A stretch of 64,000 nt of DNA from Hippea sp. KM1. GTDB taxonomy: Bacteria > Campylobacterota_A > Desulfurellia > Desulfurellales > Hippeaceae. Location of the stretch: NCBI RefSeq assembly GCF_000526195.1, contig NZ_JAFP01000001.1, positions 1,090,001 to 1,154,000 on the forward strand. The letters run 5' to 3'. The translations under genes were made by a program, and so were the position numbers. Below, piece by piece: positions 57,679 through 63,302 of the stretch (position 1 is its first letter; the number at the start of each line of letters is the position of its first letter). The notes beneath the pieces were generated by a model. It did no database searches and was not told where the DNA came from. It worked only from the letters and a program-made list of their open reading frames with translations.

Positions 57679-59922
57679 TTACCCGGAAAAATAAAAACAT
57701 CCGAAACTCAATAATATTACAATTGCAAAGGAGATAAGAAATAGTATTAGGCCAGAAAGTTTTGTGTATTTGCCTTGTTTAAGTCCAAGAAAGCCCGCAA
57801 CAAACGATAAAACAAGGGCGAAGATACCTAACACTATTCCTAAAAAATTGTTGCATTTATCGAAATTACCCACATTCATACCCAAGATTCCTGCAATTAA
57901 AGATGGAGGCAGCAAAAGATAGCCCAGCTTATTCAGGCTATCCAGCTCCATATTCCTTTTACTCTCAACCCTGAAATTGATATAGTTGTTCAGCTCTTCA
58001 ATCTCCCTATCAAAATCCTTTAGCAAACCCTCTATGCCCATCACAGCAAAGGCCTTCCTGTAAATTTCAATACCCTGATCCTGGGGTGTTATTTCCTTGA
58101 AATATATGCCGTTTAGAAAACTTAAGTATTTTTCATAAATCCCCTTTGCCTCTTCTGATATATTATCAAAACTCTCTTTTTCGCTTATCAATTGCACCAT
58201 TTTTTGCACCTGTGTATTCAGATAAACAAGATAGGCCTTATAAGACAATAGAAGAATAACCATATCGAAATACATGCTATTTGCATGCTCCATGATAAAA
58301 TCCGCGCTGCTTATGCCCACAAACGAATATCTCGTTATACCCCATAAAGTGCCCCAATCAATCCATCTATCGTAAGTTGACTCTTTCACGACCTCCTTAC
58401 AAAAAACCCTATTGGCACATGATTTATCTTTTCCATCAACAAACAGAAACTTATACCACCAATCGTCATCAACATAACCATACTCACCACTATCGAACTT
58501 CATAAGCCTATTTAAAACCCTTTTCTTCTCATCCAAATGAAAGCTGACAACAAACATCCTATCGTCAATTATAGGCAGAACCGCATCTCCGACTATCTTT
58601 TTGATAAACGACGGTATCATCTTTGATTCAACCCTATCCAACTTGGCAATCTCACCATCCAAGCTTTTAAAATTAGAAAAGTCTTCAACAACAGTATGAC
58701 CGTTTATCTTAAGTTCTATCCTATCCGCCAAAAAAGCATCTTTCGCTGCTTCCACAAAATCATTATTTTTTTTCAAAAATTGCGGATATATCCTTCTTCC
58801 AAAGTCGTTTATCTTGAGTATCTCATTTTCGTTGTATTCGTAGTTTTTAAGATGAAACGATAAAATGCCAATACTTTTATCGAACACATAAAGCGTAAGC
58901 TTCTCTAAAATCAAAGAAAACTCATTCTCTTCTTTTTTCATTTTGATTTTGATTTTATAAACAGATCCTTCTTCAGCGATTAACTCTTTTGTCTCACTTA
59001 GAGAATTTTCACCAGTTCTTGGAAAAAGCACTTTTCTTATATGCGGATAAAAATAAGAAAACTCGTTATAAAGCCCAGCAGAGTTCAATTCTGTTTTAGC
59101 TTCCCGCCACTCTCCAAATTCACATTTATTGAGCGCATCTCTGAATTTATCGTAATCCTTGATCACAAAAGGAAACATAAAGGTATGTGTACTAACAGGT
59201 CTACCAACAGCCATTAGAACCCTCTTTAGCACATTTTTATCTATTTTTTTATTAACGCCCAAAAACCCTCTTTCGCCGCCTCCCCAAAAATCGGCCTTAA
59301 TCCCAATTTTTTCAAGATAGTTTTGTAAATCCTCCACATCAAAGCCATAAAACATCGCAAGCCTATCATTATAGACAATAAACTCCATCCACGGCTTTTC
59401 AAAGAAAATCCTATCGCAAAGCGGGGAGAAGCGCTCATAGTTAAAGTAAATAATTCTCTTTAATTCCACACTCTTTGACGCTTCTTCTTCTTGCTCTGAC
59501 ACACCCTGGCACAGTCTATCCAGCCTTCTTATTCTTTCTATATCAGCCATGCCAAATCCCTCGTTCATTAAGGCCTTAATATAAGCCTTATCATTCAACG
59601 CAACTGCATATTCAAATCTGCTTAATTTATGATTTAAAATCACTGCTACCTGCTCAATACTTGAGGGTTTATCTGAATTATCGTTGTGGTGGTCTATAAA
59701 AACAACATTGCCGTTTTTTATGTTAAGGTCGTTTTCAAGCTCTACGGCATAAATTGTTTGGTTTTTGAACTGCTCAAGCTCTGACTTGTATGCACTAATC
59801 TTTGCGCCCCACTCAAGGTTTTTGTCGATAAACTTAACGCCATGCTTTTTTAGTATCCTCTTTATGGCGCACATCTCCAAATCTCTGCCACCTAATAGGA
59901 AAACCATATCACTATTTTGCAT
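57679..59922 (-). CDS. Putative DHH-DHHA1 (NrN-like) phosphodiesterase fused to CorA-type membrane effector, CRISPR-adjacent
   Basis: 747 residues from the ATG at 59922 (an in-frame TTG at 59934 is possible). Residues 1-225 look like a DHH-DHHA1 phosphodiesterase: FLLGGRDLEM (acidic motif I, 9-18), VFIDHHND (DHH at 77-79), ALNDKAY (Asp about 111) and WGGGERGFLGV (213-223), a degenerate DHHA1 GGGHxxAxG motif. From about 240 it resembles CorA proteins: THTFMFPF, WGTLWGITRYSFVG, a long helical region, and three C-terminal hydrophobic segments, with the CorA signature GMN (681-683) after the first. In type III CRISPR systems CorA is a SAM-AMP-gated membrane effector and NrN degrades SAM-AMP. The fusion would join effector and off-switch. 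It lies 47 bp downstream of a CRISPR array on the same strand. No cas10 is in the window. CorA-type Mg transport is the main alternative for the C-terminal part. Confidence 0.72.
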   Translation of the reverse strand: MQNSDMVFLLGGRDLEMCAIKRILKKHGVKFIDKNLEWGAKISAYKSELEQFKNQTIYAVELENDLNIKNGNVVFIDHHNDNSDKPSSIEQVAVILNHKLSRFEYAVALNDKAYIKALMNEGFGMADIERIRRLDRLCQGVSEQEEEASKSVELKRIIYFNYERFSPLCDRIFFEKPWMEFIVYNDRLAMFYGFDVEDLQNYLEKIGIKADFWGGGERGFLGVNKKIDKNVLKRVLMAVGRPVSTHTFMFPFVIKDYDKFRDALNKCEFGEWREAKTELNSAGLYNEFSYFYPHIRKVLFPRTGENSLSETKELIAEEGSVYKIKIKMKKEENEFSLILEKLTLYVFDKSIGILSFHLKNYEYNENEILKINDFGRRIYPQFLKKNNDFVEAAKDAFLADRIELKINGHTVVEDFSNFKSLDGEIAKLDRVESKMIPSFIKKIVGDAVLPIIDDRMFVVSFHLDEKKRVLNRLMKFDSGEYGYVDDDWWYKFLFVDGKDKSCANRVFCKEVVKESTYDRWIDWGTLWGITRYSFVGISSADFIMEHANSMYFDMVILLLSYKAYLVYLNTQVQKMVQLISEKESFDNISEEAKGIYEKYLSFLNGIYFKEITPQDQGIEIYRKAFAVMGIEGLLKDFDREIEELNNYINFRVESKRNMELDSLNKLGYLLLPPSLIAGILGMNVGNFDKCNNFLGIVLGIFALVLSFVAGFLGLKQGKYTKLSGLILFLISFAIVILLSFGCFYFSG

Positions 59923-59969
59923 ACTCAATCCCAATAGTCAATAGATCTCACAAATATCAAAATCGGGGA

Positions 59970-61101
59970 GTAATTAAATCACCATTCAACATACTCCCCA
60001 GTCGACAAGACTAAGATTAACGTATATTTCTGGGATGATGGAATGTCTCGAAATCACCATTCAACATACTCCTCAGTCGACAGTTTGTTGCGCAACAGCT
60101 AAGGAAATGGTTTAAAGATGTCTCGAAATCACCATTCAACATACTCCTCAGTCGACGAGACTAATCAATTTCATAAAAAGGTCTGCTCCTCAGTACACGT
60201 CTCGAAATCACCATTCAACATACTCCTCAGTCGACAGTTGAATACGAGTTGAATGGACATCATCTAGATTATGTGGCATTCGTCTCGAAATCACCATTTA
60301 ACATACTCCCCAGTCGACTCCGGTCTAATCGTCGGAACACTGCTCGTTGAGGCGAAATATCTCGTCTCGAAATCACCATTTAACATACTCCTCAGTCGAC
60401 TTGTCAATTTTATTAAGCGAACAGCTCCGATGTATAGCAACGCAGGTCTCGAAATCACCATTTAACATACTCCTCAGTCGACGTTCTGTCGAAGTTATTG
60501 CTAAAAGATAAACCCAACGAGTATTTCGTCTCGAAATCACCATTTAACATACTCCTCAGTCGACACTACTACTGAAAGACAAACCAGATAACTATATAGA
60601 GAAAGGTCTCGAAATCACCATTTAACATACTCCTCAGTCGACTGGTTCAAATATGGGTTCTGCAGCGGCTTGATTATGTCTCGAAATCACCATTTAACAT
60701 ACTCCTCAGTCGACAACTTCTATTCTCACACTCTATAGGAACTTAAAAAAGAATGTCTCGAAATCACCATTTAACATACTCCTCAGTCGACCACATTTGA
60801 AGTAGACGCTCCGAAAGTAGAGGACTGGATGGAGTCTCGAAATCACCATTTAACATACTCCTCAGTCGACTTATTATAATCATTTCATTCGGTTTTATTT
60901 TGTATCTAATGTCTCGAAATCACCATTTAACATACTCCTCAGTCGACTTATCAGAATGTCAGAGCGAAAGCTGGAAACATACATTTTATGTCTCGAAATC
61001 ACCATTTAACATACTCCTCAGTCGACAGGTGAGTTATGATGACATTCGAGGGTCAACTGCAAAAGTCTCGAAATCACCATTTAACATACTCCTCAGTCGA
61101 C
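59970..61101 (-). CRISPR. CRISPR array: 15 repeats of 37 bp, 14 spacers
   Basis: Repeats begin GTCTCGAAATCACCAT and end CTCCTCAGTCGAC in plus orientation. Starts: 59970 (degenerate), 60045, 60120, 60199, 60282, 60364, 60446, 60528, 60606, 60678, 60755, 60834, 60911, 60990, 61065. Spacers are 35-46 bp. The left terminal repeat has lost its first bases, and repeats 1-4 carry a C where later ones have T, so the left end is the old (trailer) end and the leader lies right. A matching minus-strand promoter sits at 61116-61144, so crRNAs read leftward and the repeat reads GTCGACTGAGG...TTTCGAGAC. No cas genes accompany it here. Confidence 0.97.
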
Positions 61102-61115
61102 TGATGTTATAACTA

Positions 61116-61144
61116 AGCATAATGCAAATTACCGATTTTTTCAA
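61116..61144 (-). promoter_or_regulatory. CRISPR leader promoter
   Basis: Minus-strand TTGAAA, 17 bp, TATGCT, 14 bp upstream of the first (newest) repeat, in an AT-rich leader. Transcription would start near 61109 and run through the array toward the NrN-CorA gene. Confidence 0.7.
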
Positions 61145-61178
61145 ATCAATATCTCTTGTTGTTTCTATGCAGTGATGC

Positions 61179-61500
61179 AAAAAAGTTGGAGAATGTATGC
61201 CTAAATTCATTTTCAAACCTTGCATTCTGGGCATGTCATTTCCATATATTGGCGTCATGACAACAAATTAACTTTTGAAAAAGTTAGAGAATCACCTTGT
61301 AAAATACAAAACAACCCTCGATTCTCCAACTTTTGCAAAAACACCCCTTAGAAAATGGCGTCAAATTAACATCCAAAAATCGCAAAAATCGAAAAGTTGG
61401 AGAATCGATTTTCAGAAAGACAAAAATATGGGATTCTCCAACTTTTTTGAAGCGATAACGAAATTATGTAAAAAATAAGGGGTAAAAAAGTTGGAGAATC
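61179..61500. repeat. Six dispersed copies of AAAAGTTGGAGAATC in direct and inverted orientation
   Basis: Copies: 61179-61194 (+), 61277-61293 (+, one mismatch), 61320-61335 (-), 61391-61406 (+), 61432-61449 (-), 61483-61500 (+). Copies 2/3 and 4/5 face each other and could form hairpins of about 15 bp. The 61102-61580 interval contains no convincing gene. The set lies between the leftward CRISPR promoter and the rightward TerB-GTPase promoter, so operator sites for a shared regulator are plausible. Confidence 0.9.
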
Positions 61501-61580: not shown

Positions 61581-61979
61581 GTGTTTCTGAATAAACTCAC
61601 TGATGACGAAAAAAAAGCTTTTATTAAACTTGCTTATTACCTGGCGAAAATAGACAAAAGGTTTTCAAAGGAAGAAAAGGATATTGTCTCTTCTTTTTTG
61701 AGAGAAATGAATATGGAAGACCCTGGTTTTAACGAGGAAGAGTTTGATTTATATGATGTTCTGTCTAATTTTAAAAGGAAAATTTCTAAAAACATTGTAG
61801 TTGTTGAGCTGTTTAGCCTTGCTTTAATTGATGATTATATGAGTATTGAAGAGAATGAACTGTTGAAAAAAGTTATTAATTATTTTGAAATAGACCCAAA
61901 GCTATTAATTTTGCTTTATAATTTTTCTAAAGCTTATGTTTCACTCTATATTCAAGGTGAAACTCTAATAACACTTTAG
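61581..61979 (+). CDS. TerB-like protein
   Basis: 132-residue helical protein with the tellurite-resistance TerB look: AFIKLAYYLAKIDKRFSKEEKDIV followed by a second acidic helix pair (LIDDYMSIEENELLKKVINYF). TerB-like domains are metal-binding and often occur in membrane-associated defence or stress modules. The start is GTG, set by AGGAGGT seven bases upstream; an overlapping ATG in another frame stops after three codons. First gene of a four-gene operon with dynamin-like GTPases. AT-rich relative to the core genes. Confidence 0.72.
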   Translation: MFLNKLTDDEKKAFIKLAYYLAKIDKRFSKEEKDIVSSFLREMNMEDPGFNEEEFDLYDVLSNFKRKISKNIVVVELFSLALIDDYMSIEENELLKKVINYFEIDPKLLILLYNFSKAYVSLYIQGETLITL

Positions 61980-61991
61980 AGGAGTGAAGAA

Positions 61992-62861
61992 ATGGATGCA
62001 ATGGAAAAAATCATAGAAATAGAAAGACTTGTCCCAATAGCATCGGAAGACCTAAAAAAACTGAAACATTTGTTGGAGAATATGGAAAAAAACAGAAAGC
62101 CTGTAGTTGCCGCTATAGGTTTATATAACCACGGCAAGAGCTCAATATTAAACGCTTTGATTGACGATTTAGATAACAGAACTTTCAAAGTAGCCGACAA
62201 AAGAGAAACAAAGAGAATAGAAATAAAAGATATGGATGATTTTGTATACATGGATACACCTGGTATAGATGCAAGGGAAGACGACGACAGAAGGGTTTTA
62301 GACGCTGTCATGGATATTGATGCTATACTTTTTGTTCATAACCCTTCAACAGGTGAGCTTGCAAGCAAAGAAGTGGAGTTTTTACATCTGATTAGAAAGA
62401 GTTTTAAGGATGTTAGAGAATTTGCAGATAGAACGATTTTTGTGTTGTCTCGTATAGATGAATTGGAAGAGGGTGAGGTTGAAAGGGTAAAAAATAAAAT
62501 AAAAAGCCAAATAAAGGAATACTTAGGAGCTGATATTTACATAAAAGAGGTGTCGGCCAAAAGGTATTTTAAGGGTGTAAAGGAAAACAAAAATATTTTT
62601 ATTGAAAAAAGTGGTATAGTTTCCTTGATGGATGCGATTTTTACTATAATTAGATTAAATGCTGACAAAATGATGGCTTCTAAAAAAGAGAAAGTTATAA
62701 AAACCATAGATTCTATAATATCTAATTTAAACAGAAGAGCTAAAAAACTGTATAAAGAAGTAAATATTCTAACACAAGAAAAGCAAAAATTTGAGTCAGA
62801 CATTTTTGAGGAATTGTGGCTAATAAATTCTACAATAGAAGAGTACAAGAAAGCTTTATAA
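61992..62861 (+). CDS. Dynamin-like / GTP-binding protein (first GTPase)
   Basis: 289 residues. G1 is IGLYNHGKSSILNAL, G3 is MDTPGID, and the G4 position reads LSRIDE, where Ser-Arg replaces Asn-Lys, so base specificity may be relaxed. A helical C-terminal region (about 215-289) ends in a coiled coil. The layout fits a short bacterial dynamin-like or LeoA/HflX-distant GTPase. A GAGGAG ribosome-binding site precedes the ATG, 12 bp after the TerB-like stop. Confidence 0.8.
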   Translation: MDAMEKIIEIERLVPIASEDLKKLKHLLENMEKNRKPVVAAIGLYNHGKSSILNALIDDLDNRTFKVADKRETKRIEIKDMDDFVYMDTPGIDAREDDDRRVLDAVMDIDAILFVHNPSTGELASKEVEFLHLIRKSFKDVREFADRTIFVLSRIDELEEGEVERVKNKIKSQIKEYLGADIYIKEVSAKRYFKGVKENKNIFIEKSGIVSLMDAIFTIIRLNADKMMASKKEKVIKTIDSIISNLNRRAKKLYKEVNILTQEKQKFESDIFEELWLINSTIEEYKKAL

Positions 62862-62873
62862 GTGGAGGATCGT

Positions 62874-63302
62874 ATGTTTATTATATATGATTTAGTTGAA
62901 TACATTTATAATCAAATAAAAGAATTAGTTGACCCTGAGCCAACGCCAACACCGCCATCTCATGCCTATAGAAAGAAAGACGAGAGCGAGTATTTAAAAA
63001 GAAAAAAACAGGAAGAGGAGAGGCGAAGATATATATTAAGCAGGGAGTTGAACTCATACAAAAGCCAATCTGCTATATTCATGAAAAACAAATATGGAGT
63101 TACAATAAACTTTGAGCCCAGTGGGTCGGATATCCATGAGTTAGGCTCTAAACGTATAGACTTTAAAAATGTTTTTCTGGTGTCTGCAGGAGAACAATAT
63201 AAAAACCTTTGTTATGAGATAGAACAAAAGGAAAGCGAGTTAAAGAGGATAGTTGAAGCGATTAATGAATTAGAAAAAATTAAAAGGAGTATGCAGGGAT
63301 GA
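62874..63302 (+). CDS. Coiled-coil protein between the two GTPases
   Basis: About 142 residues from the ATG at 62874, which has GGAGG upstream; an in-frame GTG at 62862 overlaps that site and is rejected. A short hydrophobic N-terminus (FIIYDLVEYIYNQIKEL) is followed by a Pro-Thr stretch (DPEPTPTPPS), a highly charged helix (RKKQEEERRRYILSREL), and a C-terminal coiled coil (YEIEQKESELKRIVEAINELEKI). I do not recognise the family. The end overlaps the next start (ATGA). Probably a partner of the GTPases. Confidence 0.7.
   Translation: MFIIYDLVEYIYNQIKELVDPEPTPTPPSHAYRKKDESEYLKRKKQEEERRRYILSRELNSYKSQSAIFMKNKYGVTINFEPSGSDIHELGSKRIDFKNVFLVSAGEQYKNLCYEIEQKESELKRIVEAINELEKIKRSMQG

Follow-up and report, generated by a model that had tools for sequence, protein, structure and literature searches.

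Background

Type III systems of clustered regularly interspaced short palindromic repeats (CRISPR) that are linked to a reverse transcriptase (RT) raise the open question of what their spacers record. Almost no spacers of this kind match anything (PMC5513706); up to 2020 just one match, to a levi-like virus, was on record (PMC7508674), and PMC10847044 cites later work in which RT-containing type III systems target riboviruses. Here we analyze a CRISPR array at positions 59970..61101 (minus strand) of a 64,000-nucleotide stretch of Hippea sp. KM1, hereafter the window (G000:C1:1090001-1154000, in the 1.74-Mb genome G000), together with the two other arrays of the same repeat in this genome. The habitat of the host group is hydrothermal vents.

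Among the closest described systems, the RT-Cas1 type III-B system of Marinomonas mediterranea MMB-1 likewise combines RT-Cas1, Cas2, a six-gene cmr cassette and arrays, and requires antisense guides, as type III interference requires guides antisense to RNA; the orientation of its new spacers is only marginally biased (PMC5576922), whereas here about 95% of the standing spacers have an apparently functional orientation and many of them return to sites already sampled. In the RT-linked III-B repertoire of Arthrospira the spacer sources are also essentially not findable, but that repertoire was called hyperdiverse, while the peptides compared here from spacer to spacer show a small, self-consistent target set (PMC5513706). 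Candidatus Accumulibacter, again with an RT-linked III-B system and a possible RNA-virus target, provided one nucleotide match between a spacer and a known levi-like RNA virus contig, in contrast to the many internally consistent spacers, and no contig, of the present case (PMC7508674). Finally, the lysozyme variants of the Octopus Spring virome vary, synonymously or conservatively, at a viral site targeted by CRISPR, as seen in virome reads against one spacer rather than, as here, among the spacers of one host (PMC2612747). As a system the Hippea locus belongs to a known kind; what its arrays contain is unusual and informative. From codon comparisons among spacers, protein fragments, their coding strand, the junctions between genes and an approximate genome size can be read without a virus in hand.

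Results and discussion

Spacers that share protein sites

Array 1 comprises 15 repeats of 37 nt (plus strand: GTCTCGAAATCACCATTTAACATACTCCTCAGTCGAC) and 14 spacers of 35-46 nt. Array 2, with the same repeat, lies outside the window (1156992-1158607) and holds 20 spacers (S15-S34), and a third array near 866 kb, also outside the window, consists of two repeats and one spacer (S35). The 35 spacers of these three arrays constitute our dataset, in which every spacer pair was scored by its best ungapped translated BLOSUM62 match in three strand combinations.

The initial annotation had noticed that spacer 7 (60483..60527, plus strand, 45 nt; frame +0, VLSKLLLKDKPNEYF) and spacer 8 (60565..60605, plus strand, 41 nt; frame +1, LLLKDKPDNYIEK) share the heptapeptide LLLKDKP with six synonymous changes, and comparison of the codons proved both the coordinates and the count exact: the six base differences fall in five codons, every one synonymous, and the flanking residues diverge (NEYF in S7, DNYI in S8). 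This pair, which defines site C, scores 43, whereas 4,970 control comparisons of the 35 spacers with those of the order's other arrays (four strand combinations each) reached at most 30. A chance likeness of short peptides, conceivable for spacers that encode merely 11-15 residues, is to all practical purposes excluded by this control and by the lack of any plus/minus or minus/minus pair scoring at least 34 within the arrays.

Further same-site cases were found between S3 and S6 in the window and, through array 2, for S21, S34, S25, S32, S17/S19, S29, S16/S33 and S26. The 35 spacers hold seven same-site groups (A-G) with mostly synonymous or conservative differences, and an eighth site (H) is common to an array of a different genus of the same family; 19 of the 35 spacers were assigned to such groups, whose firm core is the seven pairs scoring at least 34, groups D and F and the links of S34, S2 and S32 having been assigned from short overlaps or by eye. 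The suggestion that S7 and S8 represent two acquisitions from one gene family, at a single site, in related sources is upheld by these seven groups and the cross-genus case, in which differences are third-position-rich.

Site A unites spacer 3 (60157..60198, plus strand; RLINFIKRSAPQY, with INFIKRSAPQY) and spacer 6 (60401..60445, plus strand; VNFIKRTAPMYSNA, with VNFIKRTAPMY) with S21 (FIRRTAPQFTDA) and S34 (RFIDFIKK) of array 2. Site B is formed by spacer 2 (60082..60119, plus strand; FVAQQLRKWFKD, with RKWFKD), which overlaps S25 (KWFKTGFYVGVVTS), by spacer 9 (60643..60677, plus strand; WFKYGFCSGLI) and by S32 (YGFYVGTAITTI), and site G by spacer 5 (60319..60363, plus strand; SGLIVGTLLVEAKYL, with TLLVEAKYL) and S29 (TILIELKYLLRRI, with TILIELKYL). 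At site E the best frame of S17 and S19 reads LDQRISYL and LEQRISYL, respectively. The leader-proximal spacer 14 of array 1 (61027..61064, plus strand), in which AGGTGA precedes ATGATG and the reading MMTFEGQLQ, is a probable gene start judging from this arrangement, and shares an exact 15-nt overlap with S26 (GQLQKVKEEHYTDV) at site D; the frame first chosen for S14 and S26 (VSYDDIRGSTAK / GSTAKSQRGTLYRRG) was replaced by the gene start MMTFEGQLQKVKEEHYTDV after the codon model described below. Both spacers of site F, S16 and S33, cross a gene junction, NKILEEVSEW or NKLKEVF followed by a stop, with AGGAGGTG and ATG. Spacer boundaries differ within groups, so that no fixed acquisition site is needed.

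Site H involves a Desulfurellales metagenome-assembled genome (G010, JALWEJ010000062.1; same family, different genus) whose array has the same repeat with different spacers, ends in the same degenerate repeat (GTAATTAA...) and lies next to the same CorA-like gene, and which was the sole match to one query of a collection of 84,980 species genomes. One of its spacers (LVLMYIVPKITQ) is identical to S27 (MIAMYIIPKITQ) at 25 of 36 nt; as the counterpart of S27, it implies that one and the same site has been sampled by both genera. An 11-mer common to S23 and a G010 spacer was judged a chance match.

The same likenesses might arise from one target with internal repeats or paralogues, the pairs being copies within a single genome, and the adjacent S7 and S8 could in principle share one. 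We regard this as improbable: many different sites are affected, the gene junction of S16/S33 included, overlapping spacers tile in one order (S2-S25-S32, S34-S3 and S14-S26), and one pair crosses two host genera. Nor was a comparable same-site pattern found among the 48 spacers of the host's own type I array; none of these scores at least 34 or shares a peptide site with the RT-linked spacers, and apparent type I pairs were rejected, the high scorers in the order's type I arrays being nucleotide duplicates or near-duplicates. As judged from their codons, the comparisons show that several spacers independently sample the same protein sites in relatives that differ largely by synonymous changes.

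Coding strand and orientation of the guides

Mismatches in 12 aligned pairs numbered 34, 13 and 52 at first, second and third codon positions, counts that are not independent, as the pairs share members, and that include S17/S19 in a frame later replaced by a better one in which mismatches are third-position-rich. Every one of the seven pairs scoring at least 34 is plus/plus; among minus/minus and opposite-strand comparisons inside the arrays the top score is 32, from the mirror of a genuine pair. In a null built from host coding fragments (120 sets from a 66-kb pool) a mean of 0.56 pairs, and at most three, reached 34, most of them expected from overlapping draws of one gene.

A codon model trained on the genes of the window, which was correct for 86% of true coding fragments, preferred the plus strand in 29 of the 35 spacers; for the own type I array the count was 26 of 48 (Fisher P = 0.009). 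Given the 86% calibration, the estimated sense fraction of the 35 spacers is ~95%. With the G010 spacers included, plus was preferred in 34 of 41 RT-linked spacers against 68 of 133 in pooled non-RT arrays (Fisher P = 0.0003). Both the seven plus/plus pairs and the codon model agree with the earlier assignment of plus as the sense strand.

The right flank of array 1 (61102..61400, minus strand) is leader-like, being near-identical over more than 200 bases to the sequence to the right of arrays 2 and 3, and the degenerate repeat marks the left end of array 1, at 59970. Transcription of array 1 would on this layout run leftward, and, since the leader is on the right and the degenerate repeat on the left, the guides should run leftward too, antisense to the plus coding sense. 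Taken at the level of sequence, the analysis shows a consistent coding orientation to which the expected guides would be antisense; that the CRISPR RNAs (crRNAs) are antisense to messenger RNA follows, with good probability, from the coding signal and the leader side, no protospacer entering the argument. The claim of antisense crRNAs serving a type III system is borne out by the leaders, the degenerate repeat, and the Cas2, RT-Cas1 and Cmr genes beside array 2. Overall, we consider it likely that the spacers are samples of the same sites from related sources, in messenger-sense coding sequence with plus as the sense strand.

An RT-linked type III-B locus

Encoded on the minus strand and read toward array 2, the cas locus lies ~5-15 kb past the window's right end. 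It comprises cas2 (G000:1159014-1159289, minus strand; TIGR01573, E 2e-19), ~400 bp from the end of array 2, and a 704-aa RT-Cas1 (1159286-1161400, minus strand; RVT_1 E 5e-34, Cas1 E 6e-60) with the RT motif FADD and the Cas1 motifs MGIEG, LHTLD and DLIEEFR, and with matches to the solved Cas6-RT-Cas1 chain and to RTs of group II introns. Beyond RT-Cas1 the operon continues, in order, with an open reading frame (ORF) with a Card1-like endonuclease domain, Cmr6, Cmr5, Cmr4, Cmr3, Cmr2/Cas10 and a 408-aa ORF. Cmr3 and Cmr5 fall under the NCBIfam cut-off and above the Pfam cut-offs; Cmr2/Cas10 carries GGDD, and no HD dipeptide was found in its first 150 residues; a family scan of the 408-aa ORF, which stands at the operon start where Cmr1 is expected, gave no match. 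From its predicted gene content the locus is an RT-linked type III-B (Cmr) CRISPR system.

The Card1-like ORF (219 aa, L031:14316-14975) overlaps the start of RT-Cas1, and no CARF domain was detected in it; it is possibly a reduced type III accessory nuclease. At the type I locus, cas1 is split by a Mutator/IS256-type transposase ORF (Transposase_mut E 1.6e-80; L095:10035-12293, G000 ~480.0-482.3 kb), so that RT-Cas1 appears to be the sole intact Cas1 among the genome's Cas1 matches.

Nature of the source

The 7-15 overlapping pairs out of 595 correspond to a target pool of ~1.2-4 kb if draws are uniform, a range that varies with how much overlap a pair must have to be detected; with hot spots the true genome would be larger, and with undetected diverged overlaps the pool would be smaller. 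An RNA virus, a small DNA virus or a handful of strongly expressed genes would each be compatible with such a size. Spacers derived from a gene family of the host itself, which RT-Cas1 could sample as messenger RNA (PMC5576922), are very improbable: the translated sites tested match nothing in the host genome beyond the arrays, and antisense self spacers would face counter-selection.

We propose that the spacers would be coding pieces of related small-genome viruses met repeatedly, copied by RT-Cas1 from viral RNA and kept in the useful orientation by selection. Cmr-crRNA complexes would bind viral transcripts, upon which Cas10, with its GGDD, would signal by cyclic oligoadenylate. Synonymous viral variants would weaken old guides and so escape, and because each new variant weakens the old guides the same site would be sampled anew. 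As the orientation of acquisition is barely biased in Marinomonas (PMC5576922), the orientation seen here would call for selection or for some unknown orienting step; our data indicate that nearly all standing spacers are functionally oriented, though acquisition in the studied relative is almost unoriented.

Two kinds of source have to be weighed, RNA viruses and transcripts of small DNA viruses, between which we lean slightly toward the former. That the sources are RNA viruses, the spacers recording an undiscovered ribovirus family that infects Desulfurellales, has in our judgement close to an even chance, and we place an RNA-genome source as such at or just under that level. The presence of RT-Cas1, an estimated pool of 2-4 kb under uniform sampling, the near-complete sense orientation, the deep divergence of the variants at synonymous sites, and Shine-Dalgarno-like motifs before start codons, as in prokaryotic riboviruses (PMC10847044), all point this way, as do the lack of any trace in the searched DNA collections and of a counterpart among the 48 own type I spacers. 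Conversely, no RNA-dependent RNA polymerase motif or RNA-phage family was recognised in the spacer peptides, and absence from DNA collections is weak evidence because RT-linked spacers rarely match anything (PMC5513706). Small or heavily transcribed DNA phages, for which the few-kb pool would represent hot, highly expressed genes, are a serious candidate at somewhat less than an even chance: in Marinomonas, RNA and DNA alike serve RT-Cas1 as spacer sources and the III-B system is active against transcribed DNA (PMC5576922), and a few RT-linked spacers match DNA viruses (PMC5513706), but no DNA relative emerged from the genomes of the phylum, from phage records or from the pattern scans of IMG/VR, and none of the own type I spacers is directed against these sites.

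Several observations weigh against a viral, RNA-derived origin. The strand bias could come from selection alone. Degenerate-pattern scans of IMG/VR (sites A, B, C, D and H) gave zero or chance matches, and no second spacer peptide stood clearly above a reversed-sequence control in its contigs. Composite peptides in tBLASTn and the first 26 spacers in blastn found nothing in phage records, nor did one tBLASTn in plasmid records, with S14/S26 there in the wrong frame only; the spacer peptides had no match in PHROG and no convincing family in Pfam. The protospacer search proposed in the initial annotation was run and gave no match, for which reason the reading of related sources stands while their being viruses is something that we infer, as is their being copied from RNA. 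Some IMG/VR, phage and plasmid queries used the wrong S14/S26 frame and are not counted for site D, the corrected frame having been tested in IMG/VR, phage records and the host genome. Nor did 25 genomes of the phylum yield a protospacer. These negatives are weak, because the collections searched are mostly of DNA, with none dedicated to RNA viruses or metatranscriptomes and no scan of metagenomes among them, and because an exact degenerate pattern can match only where residues are conserved. The best weak match, L196 (GWFKSGFYYGSISTII vs KWFKTGFYVGTAITTI), had no second site and was treated as chance.

It is our tentative view, held with rather less than even confidence, that the arrays preserve the fossil traces of a family of small RNA viruses, as yet undiscovered, that infects at least two Desulfurellales genera, and that peptide comparison of RT-linked spacers can reveal proteins of viruses never sequenced. 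The spacer peptides are ready-made probes for vent metatranscriptomes.

Other arrays and neighbouring genes

Another genome of the same genus (L088, G006:C132) has a different RT-Cas1, an 870-aa open frame, and its own short arrays with unrelated repeats, the spacers of which share no peptide site with those studied here. The 49-repeat type I array of Hippea sp. KM1 (L095:6499-9653) persists alongside the split cas1; it contains duplicated spacers (1=5, 2=6, 3=7 and 18=19), which suggests internal block duplication.

A 751-aa protein with a weak CorA-like C-terminus (window 57679-59934) adjoins the trailer end of array 1, a location conserved in G010. The interval between arrays 1 and 2 contains a TerB-like gene and dynamin/GTPase-like genes (window 61581-63302; L031:8079-9590), a possible further defence or stress cluster.
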